In this document: in pieces, positions 35,384-48,971 of the stretch
How the letters are laid out: the number at the start of each line of letters is the position of its first letter
Numbering within the stretch: position 1 is the first letter of the stretch
DNA from: Jiulongibacter sediminis
Lineage (GTDB): Bacteria; Bacteroidota; Bacteroidia; Cytophagales; Spirosomataceae
Assembly: GCF_001306455.1 (NCBI RefSeq)
Contig: NZ_LGTQ01000006.1
Coordinates: 558,001 to 622,000, forward strand
Length of the DNA stretch: 64,000 nucleotides
Reading direction: 5' to 3'
Translations under genes and position numbers: made by a program
The notes under the pieces: generated by a model
The model's input: only the letters and a program-made list of their open reading frames with translations
Told to the model about the DNA's origin: nothing
Databases searched by the model: none

Positions 35384-36814
35384 TTATGCGTGTTCCTCGA
35401 GCCAAGAAAGCAATTTTTCTTTGATAACAAACTGCTCCTTTTCCGAAAAACAAACCGGGCATACATAATGATCAGGCAGATCATCGAAGTCTGTGCCGGG
35501 TTCTATTTGGTTAAATACGTCACCATATTCTTTCTGATAGATGGTTTGGCAGTTCCCGCATTCGTGAATCGAAGTTGTTTCCAGTTCGGATGTTGCCTGT
35601 TCTTTGCTCTCAGGAATTTCAAATATTGTTTTGTTAGAGATGTTTTCATTGAAAGCCAGAACAGACTTTCTCAATCTTTCAGAAAGTTGAAAGCCGGGAA
35701 TACCTTTTGCAAAGTAAGCGACTTTTCGGCCATTGGGGTCATAATCAAGCGTATACGTGATGTCGTAAACAGGAATCAGATTGAGTAGCTTCCTTCGGTT
35801 AACCATGATACTGGCAAAGACCTCGGTACGTGGAACGGTCTTTATGCCCAGACATATCCCGAAGGTGCGGAGGTCCATTTTATTGAAATATTTAACCAGC
35901 CTGCTTTTCAGTTTCAGAGCTAAAGGTGAATCATCTTCAATTTGCCAGTTGAGTTCGTTCGCCGCATGTCTAACATTAATGTCGTGTTTGGCGAGCAAAC
36001 TGCTCCAATTTTTTCGGTCTTTGGTGTCAATATTTTTGATAATGATTGATTTCCATGGAGTAATGCAGATTTCTCCAATTTTGGTGCTGATACACAGATT
36101 GCAAAGGTCCAGAAGGAATGAAACCCTGAATGTTTCGTTTCTGCGGTATATTCCCAGCCACGACTTTTTGCCGTATCGGTTAAAGCCTTCATAATAAGGA
36201 AGGGTGAATTTTGGAAGTTTTAGTTCCTGTTTTACCGGAGACGAGATCAATTCAGGAAGTGCATAAAACGGGTCTTTATTTTCAAGGACGTTGGCTTCTA
36301 TCTTTTTTGAAATTTCGGCCAGTTCTGTGCTGAATAAAAGATTGTCATAAGCTATCAGTTCATTGGATTTTGGCTGTCTGAAATAGAGATACCAAAAGTT
36401 TGGTTTCTCTGAAGAAATGAAATTGATATGACCTGAGAAGAAAGGGGTAAAGCTTTGGGCGTTATCGGAGATATTGACTTTCAGTTTTGGGTTGAAATCA
36501 AAACCGTCAAAAATATCTTTATAAATTCCCTCACTGAGCCAGTTTCCTCGCTGAAAAACCTCTTCGGCCACGTACGAACTGACCACATTTGGGTGCGGAT
36601 TAGCATGAATATAATAGTCGATTTCTGCTGCTTCCATTCGTTGAAAAAATGTTTTTTCATGAAGAAAAGAAACTTTGAAAACAGCCTGCTGGCGAAGCCC
36701 GAAACGGAGGTCAGCCACTTCACAGGATTTCAAAATTTCAAGCAGGTTTCTAAGTTCGCCCGGTGAGGCAATTCCACCCAGATAATTCACCCGGACTACA
36801 TGATAATCTCTCAT
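35384..36814 (-). CDS. Sulfite/nitrite-reductase-like protein lacking siroheme ligands, fused to rubredoxin
   Basis: Two parts. Residues about 1-340 follow the siroheme-reductase architecture: a first ferredoxin-like half domain (GGIASPGELRNLL and ADLRFGLRQQAVF), a KxKxNISD segment near 110, and a second half domain (LLDLCNLC then GEICITPWKSIII). The cysteine pairs that hold the [4Fe-4S]/siroheme centre (CxxxxxC and CxxxC) are not found. Residues about 415-460 are a rubredoxin domain with Cys419, Cys422, Cys452 and Cys455 (CGNC and CPVC). Overlaps the nasA stop by 4 nt, so it is co-translated. Likely an electron-transfer partner of nitrate reduction (inference), not a reductase itself. Confidence 0.75.
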   Translation of the reverse strand: MRDYHVVRVNYLGGIASPGELRNLLEILKSCEVADLRFGLRQQAVFKVSFLHEKTFFQRMEAAEIDYYIHANPHPNVVSSYVAEEVFQRGNWLSEGIYKDIFDGFDFNPKLKVNISDNAQSFTPFFSGHINFISSEKPNFWYLYFRQPKSNELIAYDNLLFSTELAEISKKIEANVLENKDPFYALPELISSPVKQELKLPKFTLPYYEGFNRYGKKSWLGIYRRNETFRVSFLLDLCNLCISTKIGEICITPWKSIIIKNIDTKDRKNWSSLLAKHDINVRHAANELNWQIEDDSPLALKLKSRLVKYFNKMDLRTFGICLGIKTVPRTEVFASIMVNRRKLLNLIPVYDITYTLDYDPNGRKVAYFAKGIPGFQLSERLRKSVLAFNENISNKTIFEIPESKEQATSELETTSIHECGNCQTIYQKEYGDVFNQIEPGTDFDDLPDHYVCPVCFSEKEQFVIKEKLLSWLEEHA

Positions 36815-39800
36815 ACGTTTACCGTTTTACTGCTCAGGTTAAGAATCTCATTTTCACGTTGTGATTTTTCCAGAATAGAACGCACTTCAGGTCTGCACGA
36901 GCCGCATCCCGCACCTGCTCCGGTGCTTTCGCATAGCTTTTGAAAGTCACAAATACCAGAATCTATTTTGGCTCGTAGGTTCCCTTCCCCAACACTGTTA
37001 CAAGAACAAACTAGTTTGCCCAATACGGGCTCGGCTTTTTTTCCGCTACGCAGCAATTGAATTCTTTTCTCAGACAGCTCTATTCCGTTGGCAATAAGAT
37101 CTTTGAACTCTATAAATTCAGATTTGTCACCAATGAGAATAGCCCCTACAAGCCGGTCATCTTTGATTATACATTTTTTATAGTAGCGTTTAGCCCGGTC
37201 AATAAAAATTACTTCTTCATAACCTTTCTGGTTTTGAGGAATTTCTATCAAGCCAAGAGAGCAAAGCTCCAGTCCTTCTACTTTCAAAATATTCATGGAA
37301 AGGCTGCCTTTATAAGGCGTTGAGATATCTCCGGAAAGGAAATTGGCTACGACTTCAGCTTGCTGTTCTGCAGCAGCTGTAATGCCCCGCATTTCTCCTT
37401 TCCATTGAGCAATTTCGCCACAGGCAAATATATCCGGGTCTGAAGTCTGGAGGTAGTCATTAACCTCAATGCCTCGTTTACAGGAAAGCCCTGCCTGCTG
37501 GGCTATTTGAATAGATGGGATGGTGCCTGCGGCCACAATAACCAGAGAGCAGCTTATTTTATGTCTGGATTTCAATCGAATGGCTTCGATTTTATCATCT
37601 CCGAAAAACTGTTCGACTTCATCATTAAAGAAAGTGTCAATTCCTCTCAGGGTAATCTCTTCGTGCAAAATAGCACTGCCCTGCATATCCAGTTGGCGAT
37701 CCATGAAACGGCCTATCCGCTGAACCACCGTTACTGGCATGCCCAGTTCACGTAGTGAAGCTGCCATTTCAAGGCCCAGAAGGCCGCCGCCCACAATGAC
37801 GGCCCTTCCTTTCCTGGCAATATAGGGTTCTAAAGCATCGGCATCCATACGGCTTCGCATATTGAAAATACCTCCCATTTTCGGGAAATTGCCTGGCATG
37901 AAGGCCCGGCTTCCCATGCCAAGGAATAGTTTATCGTAGGGATGCTCTTCTCCGTTTGAGTCAATGACAACCTTGTTTTTTCTGTCAATATGCTCAATGC
38001 TTACCCCTTTAAAAACCTGAATTCCATTGTCCTTAAACTGGTCTTCTCTTAGTTTGACCAACTGATCCCAGTTTTGAGTCCCACTAATGTAATCGGGTAG
38101 CATAACTCTGTTATAGAAGGGGTAAATTTCCTTGGAGAAAACCTTTATTTCGTCAGTAAAATTCAGTTGACGATAAGCGTTGATAAAGCCCAGGCCGGCA
38201 GATCCGGCTCCGATGACAATGATTTTTTCAACCGGCTTCTTATATAACGAAACCTGTACTGCGGAGAATTTAAAGTCGGGTTCTTTTGAGATAGGGTCCA
38301 CCAGGTCGCTGGTCAGGTTATTGGCACGGGCAAGGTCACTTTGAAGGATTTTGCCCCAGTGCATTGGCATAAAACAAGTGCCGCTTCTAACCTCTTCTGT
38401 AATTTCAACTTTTACTCTTACCTCCCCTCGTTTTCCTTTTACAGAAACGAGCTGGCCGTTTTTGATTTTCCGCTCCGCGGCATCTTTCGGATTTAGCTGA
38501 AGGAATGGTGATTTCTTATGCTGATTCAGGCGATTTACTTTAGCGGTTTTGGTCTGGGTGTGCCACTGATCTCTGATTCTGCCGGTAAGAAGAACTAAAG
38601 GGAATTCTTTGGTAGTACCTTCTGAGGTGTTTACTCCGGAAACCGGAATGAGCTGAGCTTTCTTATTTGGCGTATAGAAAGCGTTGTTTTCAAATAGTCG
38701 GGAGGTGCTATTACTTCCTTTTGGGTAAGGCCATTGAACAGGTCCCTTTTTTAAAAGAGAATAGTTTATGCCGGAGCAGTCAATGTTTGTGCCGACTGTA
38801 CTTTGAGCATACTCGTCATAAATTTCAGCAGGACTACTGTATCGAAATGAATTTCCCCAGCCCATTTTTTCAGCAAAGCGGCAAATGATTTCAGAATCAG
38901 GCAATGCTTCTCCCGGAGCCTCAATCGCTTTTTGAAGGAGTGAAACTCTTCTCTCGGCATTGGTCATGGTTCCTTCTTTTTCTGCCCAGGCGGCTGCGGG
39001 CAATACCACATCGGCGAAGGCCAAAGTGTCAGAATTGGAGGAAATGTCTTGTACGACAACGAAAGCTGCTTTTTTGAGGGCCTTTTCGACCTTGTTTAGA
39101 TTAGGTAAGCTTACCAAAGGGTTGGTGCAAACTATCCAGATGGCTTTTAACTTTCCATTTTCTAGGGCATCGATCATTTCCGTAGCCGAAAGGCCTGGCT
39201 TGTTTGAGATCCCTGATACACCCCAGAAACTTTCCATTTCTGCAATATGTTGTGGATTTGACAGCTCTCTGTGAGAGGCAAGCATATTGGAAAGTCCTCC
39301 TACCTCCCGACCGCCCATGGCATTGGGCTGGCCTGTTAAAGAGAAAGGTCCATTGCCGGGTTTCCCTATTTTTCCGGTGATCAGAGAGAGGCTTATCAAT
39401 GAAAGGTTCTTTTGCACACCGATGGCAGACTGGTTCAATCCCATCGTCCACATGCTCAGGAAGCCCTTAGACCGTCCAATCCATTGAGCTGTCTGACGGA
39501 TATCTTCGGGGTTTACTCCACAAAGCTCAGCGTACTCTTCAGTTGTTTTTGAGAAAACTTCAGTCTCATATTCTTTATAGCCGTCTGTGTTTTTATCAAT
39601 GAACTCCTGATCGGTAAAGCCGTTTGCGATAAGTTCTCTGCCCAGGGCGTTATTGAAATAGACATCTGTTCCGGGTAAAAGAGCAATATGTAAATCTGAG
39701 GAAGCGGCCGTCTGAGTTTTCCGGGGGTCAAGACAAATAATTTTCACATCCGGATTGGCTTCTTTATGAGCTTCAACACGTCTCCATATAATGGGATGGC

Positions 39801-40353
39801 ACCAGGCTGGGTTTCCGCCTTCAATGAGCAGGCAATCGCTCAATTCAATGTCATCATAGCAAACAGGCACACTATCTTCACCAAGTGTTTTTTTATAGCC
39901 AACAACGGCTGAACTCATGCAAAGCCTGGAGTTGGTATCAATATTATTACCTTTAATAAAGCCTTTCATGAGTTTATTCCAGAGGTAATACTCTTCCGTG
40001 AGGCATTGCCCGGAAACATAGAAGGCTACTGATTCTGGTCCGAATTTTTCAATGATTGATTGAAATACAGCGGCGGTTCGGTCAAGAGCCTGATCCCAGC
40101 TGACTCTTTTCTTTGGGAGGTTTTTGCTGTATCGCATTGTTGGATACAGAAGGCGATCGGAAGTATCATTTACGGTGTAGTGGAGGTTCATTCCTTTTGA
40201 GCAAAGCATACCATGGTTTACCGGATGGTCTTTATCGCCTTCCACGGTAATTTTGCCTTCGGGTTGTAAAGTAATGGTAATACCACACCCCACTCCACAG
40301 TAACTACAGGTAGACCTGAAGGTTTCGTTGTTTATGATTCCAGAATTATGCAT
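36811..40353 (-). CDS. nasA: Assimilatory nitrate reductase fused to NirB-like FAD/NAD(P)H module and BFD-type [2Fe-2S] domain
   Basis: 1180 residues in three parts. Residues 1-700: molybdopterin-bis-MGD catalytic subunit with [4Fe-4S] cysteines C16, C19, C23 and C51 and a probable Mo-ligand Cys145 (SRLCMSS), as in NasA/NapA. Residues about 708-1095: NirB-type FAD/NAD(P)H oxidoreductase with GAGSAG (715-720), a second dinucleotide loop GGGLLGLE and ACGEIAQW. Residues about 1112-1160: BFD-like [2Fe-2S] with C1116, C1118, C1150 and C1153. The fusion would let NAD(P)H reduce nitrate in one polypeptide. No signal peptide: cytoplasmic. Overlaps cobA by 8 nt and the rubredoxin fusion gene by 4 nt. 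Confidence 0.92.
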   Translation of the reverse strand: MHNSGIINNETFRSTCSYCGVGCGITITLQPEGKITVEGDKDHPVNHGMLCSKGMNLHYTVNDTSDRLLYPTMRYSKNLPKKRVSWDQALDRTAAVFQSIIEKFGPESVAFYVSGQCLTEEYYLWNKLMKGFIKGNNIDTNSRLCMSSAVVGYKKTLGEDSVPVCYDDIELSDCLLIEGGNPAWCHPIIWRRVEAHKEANPDVKIICLDPRKTQTAASSDLHIALLPGTDVYFNNALGRELIANGFTDQEFIDKNTDGYKEYETEVFSKTTEEYAELCGVNPEDIRQTAQWIGRSKGFLSMWTMGLNQSAIGVQKNLSLISLSLITGKIGKPGNGPFSLTGQPNAMGGREVGGLSNMLASHRELSNPQHIAEMESFWGVSGISNKPGLSATEMIDALENGKLKAIWIVCTNPLVSLPNLNKVEKALKKAAFVVVQDISSNSDTLAFADVVLPAAAWAEKEGTMTNAERRVSLLQKAIEAPGEALPDSEIICRFAEKMGWGNSFRYSSPAEIYDEYAQSTVGTNIDCSGINYSLLKKGPVQWPYPKGSNSTSRLFENNAFYTPNKKAQLIPVSGVNTSEGTTKEFPLVLLTGRIRDQWHTQTKTAKVNRLNQHKKSPFLQLNPKDAAERKIKNGQLVSVKGKRGEVRVKVEITEEVRSGTCFMPMHWGKILQSDLARANNLTSDLVDPISKEPDFKFSAVQVSLYKKPVEKIIVIGAGSAGLGFINAYRQLNFTDEIKVFSKEIYPFYNRVMLPDYISGTQNWDQLVKLREDQFKDNGIQVFKGVSIEHIDRKNKVVIDSNGEEHPYDKLFLGMGSRAFMPGNFPKMGGIFNMRSRMDADALEPYIARKGRAVIVGGGLLGLEMAASLRELGMPVTVVQRIGRFMDRQLDMQGSAILHEEITLRGIDTFFNDEVEQFFGDDKIEAIRLKSRHKISCSLVIVAAGTIPSIQIAQQAGLSCKRGIEVNDYLQTSDPDIFACGEIAQWKGEMRGITAAAEQQAEVVANFLSGDISTPYKGSLSMNILKVEGLELCSLGLIEIPQNQKGYEEVIFIDRAKRYYKKCIIKDDRLVGAILIGDKSEFIEFKDLIANGIELSEKRIQLLRSGKKAEPVLGKLVCSCNSVGEGNLRAKIDSGICDFQKLCESTGAGAGCGSCRPEVRSILEKSQRENEILNLSSKTVNV

Positions 40354-41101
40354 AGGTCAAAACTTCTTTTTGAAGGTACTTCATGACGTAATCCGGAGAG
40401 CATTTTACGGTTTCTCCAAAAACAATAACAGCCGGATTTGTTAGTCCTTTGGAGGCTACTTCGTCGCAAATAGAGCTTACCTGGGCCACTGCAATTTTCT
40501 GCTTCTCTGTAGTGCCGTCCTGAATGATTGCCACCGGTAGGTTGCTTTTTCCTGCTTCTGAGAAAATATTGCAGATTTCAGAAAGCTTGCTCATACCCAT
40601 TAATACGATAACTGTCGCATTTGACTGAGCTGCTAAGGCCATATCTTTTGGGAGTTCTCCACTTTTCGTATGACCGGTTAATACCCAAAAACTTTCACTA
40701 ATTCCCCGTTTGGTTACGGGCACTCCAGCTAATGTAGGTACGCCAACAGAGCTTGATATACCGGGGATTAGTTCTACCTCAATTCCCAGTTTTTTTACCA
40801 TATCCATTTCTTCAAAACCTCTTCCAAAAATTACCGGATCACCCCCTTTCAGGCGTACCACATGTTTACCCAGTAATACATTCGCTACGATAATTCTGTT
40901 GATTTCTTCCTGTGTGACGGAATGCTGTCCTTTTCGCTTACCCACATAAATGATCTCAGCCTTGGATTCGGCATGAGCCAGCAAAGCCTGGTTTGCCAAA
41001 GCATCATAAAGTATAATATCTGCTTCATTAAGTCGCCTGACAGCTTTCAGTGTAATCAGTTCTTCATCCCCTGGTCCTGCTCCAATTAAAGATAATTTCA
41101 T
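40346..41101 (-). CDS. cobA: Uroporphyrinogen-III C-methyltransferase (siroheme synthesis)
   Basis: SAM-dependent methyltransferase making precorrin-2, the precursor of siroheme needed by NirB. Signatures: LSLIGAGPGDEELITLKA, YVGKRKGQHS, VRLKGGDPVIFGRG and LIPGISS; 251 residues, i.e. the methyltransferase domain alone without the CysG dehydrogenase/ferrochelatase. First gene of the leftward run with nasA and the rubredoxin fusion; its 3' end overlaps nasA by 8 nt. Divergent from nirB across a 226-nt regulatory region. Confidence 0.95.
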   Translation of the reverse strand: MKLSLIGAGPGDEELITLKAVRRLNEADIILYDALANQALLAHAESKAEIIYVGKRKGQHSVTQEEINRIIVANVLLGKHVVRLKGGDPVIFGRGFEEMDMVKKLGIEVELIPGISSSVGVPTLAGVPVTKRGISESFWVLTGHTKSGELPKDMALAAQSNATVIVLMGMSKLSEICNIFSEAGKSNLPVAIIQDGTTEKQKIAVAQVSSICDEVASKGLTNPAVIVFGETVKCSPDYVMKYLQKEVLTYA

Positions 41102-41327: not shown

Positions 41328-43862
41328 ATGGGAAAGTCCAAGATTGTTGTCGTCGGGAACGGAATGGTGGGGTATAAGTTTTGTGAGAAGGCTGTAAAGT
41401 CAGCTTTGGCTGATCATATTGAGCTGGTCGTATTTGGTGAAGAGCCACGCCCGGCCTATGACCGTGTTCACCTTAGTTCTTATTTTGGTGAAAAGACTCT
41501 TTCGGAGTTGACTATGGCACCGGTAAGCTGGTACCAGGAAAATGGGATAAAGCTTCATCTGGGAGATCCAATTACTGAAATAGATGCAAAAAGTAAACAA
41601 CTAAAGTCACACCGGGGTGTAAAAGAAGACTACGACTTTTTAGTTCTGGCAACCGGCTCAGGGGCATTTGTGCCGAATATTCCAGGGGTTGATATGGATG
41701 GTATTTTTGTTTACCGCACTATAGAAGATCTGGACATGATGAAGAGCTTTGCCAAAAAAGCAAAACGGGGAGTGGTCATAGGAGGGGGTCTTCTCGGGCT
41801 TGAAGCCGCAAAAGCTTTGCTGGATTTGGGAATTAAGGATGCTCACGTGGTAGAATTTGCTCCACGTCTGATGCCAAGGCAAATTGATGATAAGGGTTCA
41901 AAAATTCTTGAAGGCAAACTTAACGAACTGGGTATTACAGTCCATTGTGATAAAAATACAGCACGCTTCTCCGGCGAAGGCACTGTGACAGGTCTTGAGT
42001 TTCATGACGGCCAGTTTCTGGATGCCGAAATGGTTGTGATTTCAGCGGGGATCAGACCGAGAGATGAAGTTGCTGGTAAAGCAAATTTGACCTTGGGGCC
42101 CAGAGGTGGTATCCTTGTCAATGAGCAAATGGAAACCTCTAATGAAAATATTTTCGCCATCGGGGAGTGTGCCCTCTACGATAACATGATTTATGGGCTG
42201 GTGGCTCCGGGTTATGAAATGGCAGAAGTTGCTTTAAACGCCATTGCCACCAGGCTGAATCTGGGGGCGGTAAGTAAAAAGCAGGAGTTTACGGGCTTTG
42301 ATATGAGCACTAAACTTAAACTGATCGGCGTAGATGTGGCCAGTTTTGGAAACCCCTTTATTGAAGAGCCCGAATGCCAGACCATAGTTTATGAAAACAA
42401 AGCAAAAGGAGTTTACAAGCGTGTCAATATTGATACTTTCAACAAAAAGCTTTTAGGAGGAATTCTTATCGGAGATGCTGAACAATACAATATGCTTCAG
42501 CAAATCTGCAGTAACGGGCTGCCGATTCCGGCTGATCCGGAAGATATGATCTTAGGTGCACGAGGTGGTGATGATGGCGAGTCCGGAGTGATGGGCTTGC
42601 CTGATTCCGCCTTAATTTGCTCTTGTGAGGCCGTTTCTAAAGGAGATATCATTCATCAAATGACCCAGAATGATTGTAAAACCCTTGATGAAATCAAAAA
42701 ATCAACCAAGGCCTGTACCGGTTGTGCGGGTTGTGTTCCTTTGGTGAAGGACCTTGTTAGCGGGGTTCTTAAGGAGCAGGGAATTATAGAAAGAAAAACC
42801 ATTTGCCAACATTTTGACCACACTCGTCAGGAATTATTAAGTCTTACAAAACTGAGAAATCTCCAAACTTTTGATGAAGTACTTCATGAGCTGGGCCATG
42901 GTGATGGTTGCGAAACTTGCCAGCCTGTGGTTTCTTCAATTTTGGCCAGTCTATGGAATGAAAACGTTCTGGAAAAAGGTAGGGCTGTTTCTCAGGATTC
43001 GAATGACCGTTTTCTTGCAAATATTCAGAGGGGCGGAACATATTCCGTAGTTCCGAGGATTCCAGGTGGCGAGATTACACCTGATAAGTTGATAGTGATT
43101 GGAGAAGTTGCTAAAAAATACGGCCTCTATACCAAGATTACAGGTGGCCAGCGGATTGATCTTTTTGGAGCTCATGTGGGTGATTTACCCAAGATATGGG
43201 AAGAATTAGTTAACGCCGGCTTTGAAAGTGGTCATGCTTACGGTAAGGCTCTGAGGACAGTCAAAAGTTGCGTAGGAACTACCTGGTGCCGTTTTGGAGT
43301 TCAGGATGCCGTTTCTTTTGCTATCGAGGTGGAGAATCGCTACAAAGGACTTCGTTCTCCTCATAAATTAAAATCAGCGGTTTCCGGCTGCATCCGAGAA
43401 TGTGCCGAGGCTCAAAGCAAAGACTTCGGAATCATTGCTACTGAAAACGGATGGAATTTATACGTCTGCGGAAACGGAGGCACAAGACCAAGACATGCCG
43501 ATTTGTTGGCTACCGATCTGAGCTCAGAAGATTGTATCAAATACATTGACCGTTTCCTGATGTTTTATATCCGTACCGCGGAGCCGCTTCAGCGTACTGC
43601 CGCCTGGCTTGACAAAATGGAAGGAGGAATTAAGTATCTGAAGTCTGTAATTATTGATGATGTGTTGGGAATAAATGCTGAACTGGAAGCAGAAATGGCC
43701 TCGCTGGTTGGTAAATACAAATGCGAATGGAAGGAAGTAGTGGAAACACCAGAGCTTCGAAAACGTTTCACTCATTTTGTGAATGCACCCGAAGTTAAAG
43801 ATCCTAATGTGGAATTGGTGCCCATGAGAGAACAGGTGAAAGCTGCAGACTGGAACGCATAA
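41328..43862 (+). CDS. nirB: NAD(P)H-dependent assimilatory nitrite reductase, large subunit
   Basis: Six-electron reduction of nitrite to ammonium in the cytoplasm. Order: FAD/NAD(P)H module (VVVGNGMVGYKF at 7-18, IGGGLLGLEAA, FAIGECA), BFD-like [2Fe-2S] (C431, C433, C466, C469), a second NirB BFD-like Cys pair (GDGCETC), then the ferredoxin-like half domain and siroheme/[4Fe-4S] region with C648, C654, C688 and C692 (CVGTTWC, CIREC). 844 residues is normal. Heads the rightward operon nirB-nirD-sensor-regulator, with a strong promoter upstream. Confidence 0.96.
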   Translation: MGKSKIVVVGNGMVGYKFCEKAVKSALADHIELVVFGEEPRPAYDRVHLSSYFGEKTLSELTMAPVSWYQENGIKLHLGDPITEIDAKSKQLKSHRGVKEDYDFLVLATGSGAFVPNIPGVDMDGIFVYRTIEDLDMMKSFAKKAKRGVVIGGGLLGLEAAKALLDLGIKDAHVVEFAPRLMPRQIDDKGSKILEGKLNELGITVHCDKNTARFSGEGTVTGLEFHDGQFLDAEMVVISAGIRPRDEVAGKANLTLGPRGGILVNEQMETSNENIFAIGECALYDNMIYGLVAPGYEMAEVALNAIATRLNLGAVSKKQEFTGFDMSTKLKLIGVDVASFGNPFIEEPECQTIVYENKAKGVYKRVNIDTFNKKLLGGILIGDAEQYNMLQQICSNGLPIPADPEDMILGARGGDDGESGVMGLPDSALICSCEAVSKGDIIHQMTQNDCKTLDEIKKSTKACTGCAGCVPLVKDLVSGVLKEQGIIERKTICQHFDHTRQELLSLTKLRNLQTFDEVLHELGHGDGCETCQPVVSSILASLWNENVLEKGRAVSQDSNDRFLANIQRGGTYSVVPRIPGGEITPDKLIVIGEVAKKYGLYTKITGGQRIDLFGAHVGDLPKIWEELVNAGFESGHAYGKALRTVKSCVGTTWCRFGVQDAVSFAIEVENRYKGLRSPHKLKSAVSGCIRECAEAQSKDFGIIATENGWNLYVCGNGGTRPRHADLLATDLSSEDCIKYIDRFLMFYIRTAEPLQRTAAWLDKMEGGIKYLKSVIIDDVLGINAELEAEMASLVGKYKCEWKEVVETPELRKRFTHFVNAPEVKDPNVELVPMREQVKAADWNA

Positions 43863-43892: not shown

Positions 43893-44243
43893 ATGACGAC
43901 TCAAGTATCTGAAAAAATAAAATGGATTCTGGCCTGTAAAGTTGAGGATGTGCCAGACAATGGAGGCTCCTGTGCACTAATTGAGGGTGAGCAAATTGCG
44001 ATCTATAATTTTGCCAGAAGGGGCGAATGGTTTGCTACTCAAAACCTATGTCCTCATAAAAAACAAATGGCTCTTTCACGGGGAATGATCGGTTCTGATG
44101 GGGACGTACCGAAAGTGGCATGCCCGTTTCATAAAAAAACATTTTCTTTGGTCTCTGGTAACTGCCTTAGTGGCGATGACTATGAGATCAAAACCTACCC
44201 GGTCAAGATAGAAAACGGATTGGTATATATAGGAATCGACTGA
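43893..44243 (+). CDS. nirD: Nitrite reductase small subunit, Rieske type
   Basis: 116-residue Rieske-fold partner of NirB. The frame opens upstream at a TTG (43863), but the ATG at 43893 follows an AGGAAA-like purine run and gives the usual length. Unlike E. coli NirD, which has lost them, the [2Fe-2S] ligands are kept: Cys-Pro-His in LCPHKK and Cys-Pro-Phe-His in ACPFHKKTF, so the cluster is probably functional. Its TGA overlaps the ATG of the sensor kinase gene (TGATG). Confidence 0.93.
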   Translation: MTTQVSEKIKWILACKVEDVPDNGGSCALIEGEQIAIYNFARRGEWFATQNLCPHKKQMALSRGMIGSDGDVPKVACPFHKKTFSLVSGNCLSGDDYEIKTYPVKIENGLVYIGID

Positions 44244-45706
44244 TGCAGCCCCACGAAACCATTGATGGCATCAGCATGAATTCTATTGACAAAACGGTAG
44301 CAAAAAGACTTACTATTCAATATGTTATAGCCTTGTCTTTGGTTGCTGTTTTGACTATTCTCGGTCATACGTTAATTCAACTTATTCTAACCAATACCAC
44401 CGATAGTAGCAGGGTCATAAACCTTGCCGGTAGACAAAGAATGCTTTCTCAGCAGTTAACCAAACTGTCGGTTCTTCGACAAACAAGTCCGGGAAATTGG
44501 GATCAAAGTTTAGAAAATACATTTTCTGAGAGCCTTTCGGAATGGAAATCAGTCCACATGGGTTTGAGAGACAATCTTCTGGTAGATGATAAACGCTATG
44601 AAGTAAAGAATACAAAGGTCATTGATAGCCTTTTTAAGGCCATAACACCATCTTATGATGGAATGAATGCATTCTTTGAGGCTCAGAAAAATGAAAAGAT
44701 GAGCGAAGACATTGGCGTACTTCTCAACCATGAATCGGCATTTCTTAAAACGATGGATCGTATCGTTTTTGAATATGACCTGCAGGCTGCAAAAACTATA
44801 GGAAATATTAAGCGAATAGAATTCGTCATCTTGTTTCTTACGCTTCTCACCTTGTTTTTCGAGTTTGTCTTGATTTTTCAACCTCTTTCAAATTATGTCA
44901 AGCGGGTAATTACCGAACTCATTACTTCGAAGCAAAAACTCGACGATACGCATAGCCAGCTATCTGTTTCAAACCGAATGCTCCGGAATATTCAGGAAGA
45001 CTTAGACAAAGCCATGAAGGAGCGTTATGAGCTCAAACGAAAGGAGGACCAAATCAGGTCTGCTTCTTTGCTTGAAGGACAGGAAGAGGAGAGAAAACGT
45101 ATTTCACGAGAAATTCATGATGGTCTTGGTCAGATGTTGACCGGGGTAAAGCTAGGTTTGAGCCGGTTAAAGTCATCTGACCTCTCGGAGAAATATCAAA
45201 AAGCTTATGAACATACTAAAGATCTGCTGACGGAAACGATAGAAACTACCCGGGCTGTTTCGTTTAATCTCATGCCGACAGCGTTAAATGATTATGGCAT
45301 ATCATCGGCACTGAAAATCTTGATTGCCAGTCAAAGTCTTAGCGGTGAAACGGAAATAGATCTTGACATTGATGAGCCTGATAAACGCTATGATCAGAAA
45401 CTCGAAATTGCGATTTACAGAATCGTCCAGGAGGCCCTCAACAACATCATCAAACATGCAAATGCCAGCAAAGCCAAAGTAAGTTTGAATGAAAACAACG
45501 ATGTTTTGGAGCTTAGCATCACGGATAACGGAGTAGGTTTTGACCCTGGCAAACTGAAACAAAGCAGAGCTTCTTTGATTCATAACGGAGTGGAAAATAT
45601 GAAGACCAGAGCTGAGTTGCTTAACGGGGCATTTAAACTCACCACTATTCCGGGAGGGGGAACCGACATTTTCATTAAATTGCCGATCAAACCTGCGGAT
45701 AAATAA
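44243..45706 (+). CDS. NarX-like nitrate/nitrite sensor histidine kinase
   Basis: 487 residues: TM1 about 25-50, periplasmic region, TM2 about 193-213, coiled coil to about 275, HisKA_3 dimerisation domain with EIHDGLGQ (phospho-acceptor His292) and an HATPase_c domain ending near GGGTDIFIKLP. The periplasmic start SSRVINLAGRQRMLSQQL matches the PilJ/NarX-type sensor helix, whose conserved Arg binds nitrate in NarX (established for NarX, inferred here). The start overlaps the nirD stop (TGATG) and the stop overlaps the regulator start (TAATG), so all are coupled. Met12 is an alternative start. Confidence 0.9.
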   Translation: MQPHETIDGISMNSIDKTVAKRLTIQYVIALSLVAVLTILGHTLIQLILTNTTDSSRVINLAGRQRMLSQQLTKLSVLRQTSPGNWDQSLENTFSESLSEWKSVHMGLRDNLLVDDKRYEVKNTKVIDSLFKAITPSYDGMNAFFEAQKNEKMSEDIGVLLNHESAFLKTMDRIVFEYDLQAAKTIGNIKRIEFVILFLTLLTLFFEFVLIFQPLSNYVKRVITELITSKQKLDDTHSQLSVSNRMLRNIQEDLDKAMKERYELKRKEDQIRSASLLEGQEEERKRISREIHDGLGQMLTGVKLGLSRLKSSDLSEKYQKAYEHTKDLLTETIETTRAVSFNLMPTALNDYGISSALKILIASQSLSGETEIDLDIDEPDKRYDQKLEIAIYRIVQEALNNIIKHANASKAKVSLNENNDVLELSITDNGVGFDPGKLKQSRASLIHNGVENMKTRAELLNGAFKLTTIPGGGTDIFIKLPIKPADK

Positions 45707-46365
45707 TGTCGGATGTGATAAAACTTTTGTTGGTCGACGATCACGAAGTGGTCAGAAAAGGAATGAAGTTTCTACTTGAGGATGAGGAAAATCTGGAGAT
45801 TATAGGTGAGGCTTCTGATGGAGAGGAGGCTTTGCAAAGAATCGAAGAATTGAAGCCGAATCTTGTACTTCTTGATGTAAACATGCCCGGGATGAATGGT
45901 ATTGAGGCAGCAAAGAAAATATCAGCGAATTATCCGGCTGTCAGGGTTTTAATTTTCTCAATGCATAATGACCCGGATTATATCGTCAATAGTGTAACCA
46001 ATGGAGTCGACGGATATATTCTGAAAGATGCGGAAAAAGAGGAAATTCTGAAGGCCATGAAAACGGTTCACCGTGGAGAAAAATATTTTCCACCTAACGT
46101 TTCTGCTCTGCTTGTTTCGGCCCTTCAGGGTGGAGGAATGCCAAAGGTGAAGTCTAAAAGAAGTGCCAGTGTACTCGATAAACTTTCAAAAAAAGAAAAG
46201 GAAATCCTGAAGTTTATAGCTCAGGGTATGAGCAGCAAAGATATCGCCCTGAGGCTGACACTAAGCATTAGAACCGTGAGTAATCATAGGGCCAATATGC
46301 TCAAGAAAACAGGCTTGAACAATACCGCCGAACTAGTGAGAATGGCGACCAATGAAGGGTTTTGA
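45706..46365 (+). CDS. NarL/FixJ-type response regulator
   Basis: 219 residues: receiver domain with DDH acidic pair, phospho-acceptor Asp57 (LVLLDVNMPG) and conserved Ser/Lys (FSMH, LKDA), then a LuxR-type HTH (LSKKEKEILKFIAQG, RTVSNHRANMLKKTG). Cognate partner of the sensor kinase that overlaps it by 1 nt. Together with the heptamers at the nirB promoter this forms a probable nitrate/nitrite-responsive circuit for the cluster (inference). Confidence 0.93.
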   Translation: MSDVIKLLLVDDHEVVRKGMKFLLEDEENLEIIGEASDGEEALQRIEELKPNLVLLDVNMPGMNGIEAAKKISANYPAVRVLIFSMHNDPDYIVNSVTNGVDGYILKDAEKEEILKAMKTVHRGEKYFPPNVSALLVSALQGGGMPKVKSKRSASVLDKLSKKEKEILKFIAQGMSSKDIALRLTLSIRTVSNHRANMLKKTGLNNTAELVRMATNEGF

Positions 46366-47990: not shown

Positions 47991-48971
47991 ATGATCAGAG
48001 ACAACCACGGCAGACCTATCAATTACCTGAGACTGGCAGTGACAGATCGCTGTAATCTGCGTTGTTTCTACTGTATGCCAGAGGAAGGTATCAATTTCCT
48101 GCCAAAACCGCATCTGCTCACCTTTGAGGAAATGGTGCGAATGGTCACGCTCATGGCCGAAATGGGCATCACTAAAGTACGTATCACCGGTGGAGAGCCC
48201 TTTGTACGAAAAGACATGATGGCTTTTCTGCGAAGTCTCAAAAATATCACGGGTATAGAACAGGTCAATATCACCACCAACGGGGTTTTAACGGCTCCGC
48301 TTGTTCCTGAATTAAAAGAGTTGGGTATCAGCTCGGTGAATTTAAGCTTGGATACGCTGGATAGGGAACGCTTCAAAGAAATGACCCGCCGAGATGAGCT
48401 GCCCAATGTGCTCAAAACCTTGGATGCTCTGTTGGAAAACGGTATCAAGACCAAGATCAATGCCGTGGTGATGGCTGGTAAAAATGATCAGGACATTCTG
48501 CCGCTGGTAAATTTGTCGAAAGAGCTTCCGGTTTCGGTGCGATTCATTGAAGAAATGCCTTTCAACGGCAGCGGCATCAATAAAGAGGCCTTTATGAGCC
48601 ATACCCGCATCATTGAAAAAATTCGGGAAGCCTGCCCTTCTTTAAAAAAACTCAAAGACGAGGCTCATTCCACCTCAAGCAATTACAGTATTGACGGTCA
48701 TCAGGGAAATGTGGGAGTTATAGCAGCATTCAGTCGCACCTTTTGCGGAAGCTGCAACCGCATTAGAGTCACCCCGACCGGCACCCTAAAAACCTGTCTT
48801 TATGATGATGGCGTGATGAATATCCGAGACCTTTTAAGAACAGAACCAGATAACAAAATCATCAAAGAAAAGCTACTGGCAGCCTTCTCCAGCCGCCCAA
48901 AAGACGGTTTTGAAGCCGAAGCCCTTCGTTCTGCTGAAGTGAGTGAGAGTATGACTACGATTGGGGGGTGA
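47991..48971 (+). CDS. moaA: GTP 3',8-cyclase (molybdenum cofactor step 1)
   Basis: Radical-SAM enzyme converting GTP to 3',8-cH2GTP. N-terminal cluster motif CNLRCFYC (C21, C25, C28), RITGGEP, and the C-terminal [4Fe-4S] motif FCGSCNR plus CLYD; ends in the Gly-Gly tail this family needs. 326 residues. Starts 1 nt after the cysteine desulfurase stop. Supplies cofactor for NasA and the sulfite-oxidase-fold enzyme at 59 kb. Its last 35 codons recur twice downstream as diverged copies. Confidence 0.96.
   Translation: MIRDNHGRPINYLRLAVTDRCNLRCFYCMPEEGINFLPKPHLLTFEEMVRMVTLMAEMGITKVRITGGEPFVRKDMMAFLRSLKNITGIEQVNITTNGVLTAPLVPELKELGISSVNLSLDTLDRERFKEMTRRDELPNVLKTLDALLENGIKTKINAVVMAGKNDQDILPLVNLSKELPVSVRFIEEMPFNGSGINKEAFMSHTRIIEKIREACPSLKKLKDEAHSTSSNYSIDGHQGNVGVIAAFSRTFCGSCNRIRVTPTGTLKTCLYDDGVMNIRDLLRTEPDNKIIKEKLLAAFSSRPKDGFEAEALRSAEVSESMTTIGG

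Follow-up and report, generated by a model that had tools for sequence, protein, structure and literature searches.

What is the product of a gene that begins within the end of a nitrate reductase gene, resembles a siroheme reductase over most of its length and finishes in a rubredoxin? Such a gene lies among the nitrate assimilation (nas) genes of a 64,000-nucleotide stretch of the Jiulongibacter sediminis genome (hereafter the window); its product is labelled NRD here. A preliminary description, made from the DNA letters, had seen in it both half domains of a siroheme reductase, no CxxxxxC/CxxxC cluster cysteines and a C-terminal rubredoxin, and had proposed a repurposed scaffold that either carries electrons to or from the NasA fusion or binds siroheme/nitrite without catalysis. 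It had also reported a 4-nt overlap with nasA, and indeed the start of NRD and the end of nasA share the four bases ATGA. The relevant features of the window are:

35384..36814 (-): NRD gene, 476 aa; NirA/CysI-like, without the canonical cluster motif, with a C-terminal rubredoxin
36605..36808 (-): NRD, first ferredoxin-like half domain, about residues 3-70, with invariant R41-Q42 (PF03460 on 3-46; R41 and Q42 in 65/65 aligned sequences)
36230..36589 (-): NRD, first NIR_SIR-like domain, about residues 76-195, with the motif P109-x-L-K112-x-N114 (profile alignment, strand/helix order of the model, conservation)
35984..36217 (-): NRD, second ferredoxin-like half domain, about residues 200-277, with the TPWKS block (model, profile alignment, conservation)
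36092..36103 (-): NRD, C238-x2-C241, away from the cluster position (Cys in 59/65 and 62/65 sequences)
35630..35983 (-): NRD, second NIR_SIR-like domain, about residues 278-395, without C-x5-C/C-x3-C (profile alignment; weak in single-family profiles)
35429..35566 (-): NRD, rubredoxin domain, residues 417-462, Cys 419, 422, 452 and 455 (PF00301, 1.1e-15)
36811..40353 (-): fused nasA, joining a Mo nitrate reductase to a NirB/NorW-like FAD module and a BFD [2Fe-2S] domain
37084..38229 (-): NasA, FAD/NADH module with Rubredoxin_C, residues 709-1090 (PF07992, PF18267)
36868..37014 (-): NasA, BFD [2Fe-2S] domain, residues 1114-1162 (PF04324); lacking in the second NasA of one genus
40346..41101 (-): cobA, uroporphyrinogen-III C-methyltransferase (siroheme synthesis), overlapping nasA
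41328..43862 (+): nirB, divergent from nasA; large subunit of NADH nitrite reductase, including a NIR_SIR domain
43896..44243 (+): nirD, Rieske-like small subunit (ORF from 43863)

Pfam placed Rubredoxin on residues 417-462 (1.1e-15) and reported no NIR_SIR 4Fe-4S domain for NRD. It did find NIR_SIR_ferr at 2.4e-6, where 27.6 bits exceeded the cut-off of 24 and two stretches passed, the best being 3-46. At E<=1 only two NCBIfam models were listed, both rubredoxin-type, and among PDB sequences the best 60 of 71 and the best 60 of 78 matches fell on the rubredoxin part. Sigma-70 and terminator scans gave results at chance level.

NRD resembles a complete two-lobe nitrite/sulfite reductase

The preliminary description had suggested a structural and profile comparison with NirA/CysI. 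An AlphaFold model of NRD (single chain, 8 related sequences) had a mean pLDDT of 60, and one of the first 400 residues of another family member (9 sequences) a mean of 63, so both are low-confidence predictions. When the whole NRD model was submitted to Foldseek, ranks 1-31 were all NirA, plant NiR or SiR, starting from 5.3e-9, and rubredoxins came next. With the rubredoxin-free model, all 31 matches at E<=1e-3 were again NirA, NiR or SiR (best 6.4e-11), the next fold scoring 0.24. The structural alignments spanned 464-560 columns including gaps, with TM-scores of 0.21-0.34 and rmsd values of 16-21 A, indicating that local elements and their order agree while their packing is poorly predicted; identity to NirA, NiR and CysI in these structure-based alignments was 9-14%.

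Profile comparison pointed in the same direction. Twenty-four NRD sequences compared with 12 mixed NirA, CysI and SiR sequences gave 95.5-97.9% probability over 370-408 columns, with local alignments reaching across residues 5-395. Residues 1-395 of NRD thus resemble a complete two-lobe reductase of the NirA/CysI type, NIR_SIR_ferr plus NIR_SIR, with no N-terminal extension, although this assignment comes with low-confidence models and a weak C lobe. Run in hhalign against small single-family profiles, 65 NRD sequences matched locally: P values of the N lobe remained significant at 3e-6 to 4e-4, and those of the C lobe were weak throughout (0.0026 to 0.38). The best partner of the N lobe was the 700-aa SiR set (P 3e-6); with NirA it gave P 8e-5, aligning there to the second half-domain; two nas proteins used as single-sequence controls gave P 0.24 and 0.42. 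These small profiles left undecided whether NRD descends from NirA rather than from CysI or another relative, and the evolutionary step consequently stays conjecture. The proposed likeness to siroheme reductases therefore stood, as did the idea of a repurposed scaffold, which both fold and profiles support; its restriction to the half domains did not, since models, Foldseek and profiles matched both lobes.

The cluster motif is missing and part of the active site persists

For residue-level comparison, 92 NRD matches were reduced to 65 sequences by removing repeats. One of these (L038) stops at a contig edge ahead of the rubredoxin, and the rubredoxin cysteines were therefore counted over 64 sequences; all four were kept in 64/64. 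The domain has the two C-x2-C knuckles of an Fe(Cys)4 rubredoxin, confirming the earlier assignment. The absence of the cluster cysteines proved equally general: within residues 278-400 neither C-x5-C nor C-x3-C occurred in any of the 65 sequences, and 24 of them lacked a single cysteine there, whereas both motifs were present in 5/5 NirA and in the CysI/SiR sequences compared. The last of these four cysteines bridges the cluster to siroheme.

Cysteines at other positions were not arranged in a cluster-type pattern, although the second half-domain does contain a conserved C238-x2-C241 (59/65 and 62/65), so that the expectation of no alternative cysteines held only in part. Further cysteine columns were C250 (37/65), position 385 (30/65) and C321 (25/65). 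The last meets the first Cys of C-x3-C in the profile alignment with NirA, though not in that with CysI, and stands alone in a poorly aligned stretch. C238, C241 and C250 were considered as a general cluster site and rejected, being missing from 6, 3 and 28 of the 65 sequences, respectively.

It is in principle conceivable, though in our view improbable, that NRD is still an enzyme. It would hold a metal or tetrapyrrole through C238, C241, C250 or other residues, and its own rubredoxin would supply the electrons for reducing nitrite, NO or a different small oxidant; detoxification of NO made by NasA is one example. The C238-x2-C241 pair is consistent with this, as is a match of the flavorubredoxin NO reductase model to residues 393-464, approximately the rubredoxin part, albeit with 35 of 711 bits and far under the cut-off. 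A nas system with an NO-detoxifying partner is described for Bradyrhizobium in the available part of one report (PMC4724949). Against an enzyme stand the missing canonical motif, the sequences without C238 (6/65) or C241 (3/65), and the presence of NirB in nearly all genomes that carry NRD.

We then compared the positions of NRD that align with the active site of CysI, where we take R83, R153, K215 and K217 to be the basic substrate residues and likewise assume roles for R113, R117-Q118 and Q396. R117-Q118 was retained as R41-Q42 in 65/65 sequences. The place of R83, position 8 of NRD, was K or R in 61/65, that of K217 (K112) was Lys in 60/65, and that of Q396 was Lys in 57/65 and Arg in 5/65. 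The K215 place held Lys in 25/65 and Arg in 14/65, with the K215/K217 register uncertain by one, and the R113 place was variable. The place of R153 was Arg in 0/65. The basic substrate set of a siroheme reductase is thus incomplete in NRD, as is its set of four cluster cysteines, and catalysis is unlikely because both the Arg153 equivalent and the cluster motif are missing from all 65 sequences. From the same two absences, of cluster/axial cysteines and of Arg153, we infer that siroheme has been lost. By these characters NRD, while having the likeness of the NirA/CysI fold, lacks the canonical motif and would not be counted among the siroheme reductases; it does belong with the rubredoxins, whose ligands it conserves, and with the nas gene set.

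The positions that persist, namely the invariant R41-Q42 and the basic residues 8, 112 and 255, aligned with CysI R83, R117, K217 and Q396, would fit a different role. NRD might be a chaperone-like maturation or carrier protein, its empty pocket binding either siroheme destined for NirB or the nitrite that NasA releases, while the rubredoxin keeps iron or thiols reduced. We regard this as rather unlikely overall: the overlap of cobA with nasA on the same strand fits it, and the loss of the Arg153 equivalent and of any cluster-type cysteine pattern does not. The available text on the Paracoccus nas cluster notes that a maturation protein is missing there (PMC6618116), which a carrier of this kind would suit.

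NRD accompanies a fused NADH-type NasA

Matches to NRD were found in 52 of 148 genomes of the order, its own included, with best-match identities of 25-49% outside its own genome. Some matches were partial; in G082 (75% complete) NRD was in four pieces with stops, and in this genome, G110, G120 and some others NRD or nasA was in pieces, most of these being fragmented assemblies. Within the phylum set of 395 genomes, which has 5 NRD carriers in common with the order set, 29 genomes (own included) had NRD at E<=1e-150; among the matches listed, weaker ones covered the rubredoxin part only. Seven plasmid records also matched. Four of them, from Spirosoma, Hymenobacter and two Persicobacter (presumably also Bacteroidota), cover at least 80% of the query, and three from Rhodococcus touch only 27% of it. 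Since it recurs across order and phylum, NRD is a conserved gene and not a chance reading frame.

NasA showed the same distribution. At E<=1e-100 it was found in 53 of the 148 order genomes; with G105, whose 36% match is unfused, set aside, NRD and fused NasA occupy an identical set of 52 genomes (hypergeometric log10 -40.5, relatedness ignored). In the phylum, fused NasA occurred in 33 of 395 genomes (two candidates scored per genome). Twenty-eight of these genomes had both genes, and one further NRD genome (G269), with the gene at a contig start, had no NasA match.

Gene order told a similar story: 41 of 54 NRD copies lay within 300 nt downstream of nasA, and 8 others shared its strand at distances of up to 2.2 kb. 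NRD was 4.8 kb from nasA in G109 and 6.6 kb away in G136, on the other strand and behind nirB; it was on a separate contig in G110, G120 and G020. The conserved link with nasA proposed earlier is thereby upheld, the exceptions to co-occurrence being G269 and five NRD-less genomes discussed below.

This distribution also bears on the idea that NRD passes electrons to some protein beyond the nas set; NasA would then be its rubredoxin reductase, and the operon would provide only co-regulation. Rubredoxins are general carriers, and the NasA module does have rubredoxin-reductase features: its C-terminal half scored 158 bits against the NorW (rubredoxin-reductase-type) model, below the cut-off of 392, besides 320 bits over the first 472 of 794 positions of the NirB model, below the cut-off of 578. 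A general carrier would, however, be expected more widely, and NRD occurred only alongside fused NasA in the 148 genomes; we consider this reading very improbable.

Tree distances and copy number link NRD to NasA

NirB was present in 51 order genomes, all inside the 52 with NRD and NasA. With the three proteins nearly always together, presence cannot choose the partner, and we turned to tree distances. In 28 genomes (29 were tried; G139 was dropped because its NasA match is split) the distance correlations were 0.67 for NRD-NasA, 0.49 for NRD-NirB and 0.89 for NasA-NirB. The partial correlation of NRD with NasA given NirB was 0.57 (jackknife 0.51-0.60; 0/2000 label permutations as high), whereas that of NRD with NirB given NasA was -0.30. 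This lack of a residual NirB signal speaks against NRD as a siroheme carrier for NirB. With sulfite reductase as the control, in 20 genomes, the partials were 0.64 for NRD-NasA, 0.44 for NRD-NirB and 0.83 for NasA-NirB, showing that NirB does covary with the set.

Copy number gave a second line of evidence. Two genomes of one genus, G103 and G142, each contain two NRDs and two fused NasAs with one NirB match, which again sits poorly with a NirB-directed carrier. The additional copies are:

L053, 11100-14459 (-): second fused NasA copy with its own NRD neighbour; also G103:C22

The second NasA of G142 is 47-48% identical and ends before the BFD domain, keeping the [4Fe-4S], Mo, FAD and Rubredoxin_C parts; it lies 26 nt from its NRD, which leaves no room for BFD. 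In G103 the match to the second NasA ends at residue 1107, also before BFD, as judged from match ends only. As both belong to one genus, the loss of BFD counts as one event. NirB was accordingly rejected as the partner of NRD, distance and copy-number evidence favouring NasA, and the pairing of NRD with NasA is evident in presence, position and tree distance alike.

Some genomes pair fused NasA with NirA instead

Five phylum genomes (G357, G320, G196, G155 and G297) have a fused NasA and no NRD. Their NasAs contain the BFD cysteines; in G320 the first 157 residues, among them the [4Fe-4S] cysteines, were unmatched. No more than 2.8 kb from nasA and in its orientation, all five encode an ORF of 590-675 aa with NirA-like C-x5-C and C-x3-C (Pfam was checked on one). 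We compared these five with 75 NRD genomes, 80 fused-NasA genomes in all. A NirA at least 60% identical to the query from L126, itself taken from one of the five, was found in 5/5 genomes without NRD and in 0/75 with it, where the query met only sulfite-reductase-type matches of 23-37%. Conversely, NirB at E<=1e-80 was found in 0/5 genomes without NRD and in 74/75 with it, the single miss being G106 (84% complete). The distribution defines two gene sets, NasA with NirA, or NasA with NRD and NirB. That NirB follows NRD so closely, and that NRD lies beside nirB in G136 and G109, is what a carrier protein for NirB would predict.

NRD is therefore no universal need of this enzyme type. The NasAs with and without NRD (38 and 5 sequences) were separated by only 7 signature columns, so no clear docking remodelling of NasA was seen, and a remodelled docking surface was not retained as an explanation.

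A doubtful account of the two sets is that a NirA-like pseudoenzyme, stripped of siroheme and cluster but equipped with a rubredoxin, has remained bound to the NirB-like NADH module of NasA as a dedicated redox subunit and electron relay, able to substitute even for a missing [2Fe-2S] domain. The same account, no firmer in this part, would set NasA beside a live NirA, in the five genomes, against NirBD handling nitrite where NRD is present.

In four of the five NirA-type sets (L122, L124, L125 and L126) a 202-206-aa protein is encoded between NirA and a 430-460-aa ORF.

A possible third redox component of NasA

The nitrate reductase probably has in NRD a dedicated partner for handling electrons, one that has apparently not been studied before. 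The form of this idea that we favour, tentatively, gives the NADH-type assimilatory NasA of Bacteroidota a third component of its own: NRD, a pseudo-reductase scaffold bearing a rubredoxin electron relay. Its body would be a nitrite/sulfite-reductase scaffold that lost the [4Fe-4S]/siroheme ligands and turned into a docking platform, leaving the C-terminal rubredoxin iron as its redox cofactor. NRD would dock on the FAD, Rubredoxin_C and BFD module of NasA, approximately in the place that the siroheme domain takes in NirB, and its rubredoxin would accept electrons singly from the FAD and hand them to, or buffer them for, the [4Fe-4S]/Mo end. Since that module is both NirB- and NorW-like, NRD would supply a reductase-shaped part, in NirB order, together with a rubredoxin, the reductase's client. 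The physical complex, and the route and direction of the electrons, are what we infer from these likenesses.

A docked redox subunit, the simplest of the readings, agrees with the Rubredoxin_C domain in the FAD module of NasA, and with the second NasA of G142, which has no BFD and yet retains NRD. The main objection is that five fused NasAs manage without NRD; as these have the BFD cysteines, that electron path does not of itself call for a rubredoxin. The persisting anion/siroheme-side positions (R41-Q42, K/R8 and K112) also count against it, because plain docking would not require them, as do the NRDs lying by nirB (G136, G109) or off the nasA contig (G020), the low model confidence, and a single-family profile match that is local with a weak C lobe.

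Relation to known systems

NRD shares with NirA/plant-type NiR (1zj8, 2akj, 3b0g) and CysI (1aop) the two-lobe order of half-domain plus NIR_SIR and the x-RQ and P-x-x-K blocks, and in the five NRD-less genomes a NirA is found among the nas genes. Unlike them, it lacks C-x5-C/C-x3-C, the Arg153 equivalent and the N-terminal extension, and has an extra rubredoxin. A NIR_SIR-type fold with a cluster is also found in CobG, the precorrin-3B synthase of the cobalamin pathway. The C-terminal half of NasA followed by NRD repeats the NirB order of FAD, Rubredoxin_C, BFD and reductase-like part; unlike NirB, this order is split over two genes, its two-lobe part has no cluster motif, and a separate NirB exists in the same genome. 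In the nasABGHC genes of Paracoccus, the small redox carrier NasG shares its gene cluster with the nitrate and nitrite reductases, with which it possibly forms a complex, as far as the available text goes (PMC6618116); NasG is described there as a ferredoxin, whereas in NRD a rubredoxin is borne by a large scaffold.

The gene itself may have been met before under its shorter name. An Aquirufa operon described in 2025 comprises nitrate reductase, nitrite reductase, a transporter and a rubredoxin, in the available part of that work (PMC12528234). Judged by operon content, this rubredoxin is probably the same gene as NRD; in that portion it is named only rubredoxin and its reductase-like body goes unmentioned. 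In a 2024 table, likewise available in part, rubredoxin is marked plus or minus in step with the nitrate genes across four strains (PMC10821818). The Spirosoma and Hymenobacter plasmids annotate the NRD gene as "rubredoxin", beside "nitrate reductase". In the open-licence papers searched, no description of the reductase-like body was found. NRD, a real and conserved component of nitrate assimilation, has apparently been overlooked.

It would give a large phylum an uncharacterised nitrate-assimilation component, present in 75 genomes of 40 genera among those compared. This would explain a protein of about 480 aa annotated "rubredoxin", would show clearly how a siroheme-reductase-like scaffold can be put to new use when its usual cluster ligands are gone, and would make the electron supply of the fused NADH-type NasA testable.

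Other genes near nasA

The nitrate transporter model TIGR00886 had no match at its cut-off in the J. sediminis genome (G000; best 61.8 of 311.7 bits), a cut-off passed in only 2 of 14 control genomes; a NarK or MFS transporter gene adjoins nasA in two annotated relatives. Directly after nirBD, at 44243-46365, comes a candidate nitrate/nitrite-responsive pair, made up of a histidine kinase whose N-terminal domain is PilJ-type and a response regulator of the LuxR type; similar pairs lie near nasA in L056, L057 and L058. Close to the nas genes, at 47991-48971, is a radical-SAM MoaA-like gene of molybdenum cofactor synthesis.
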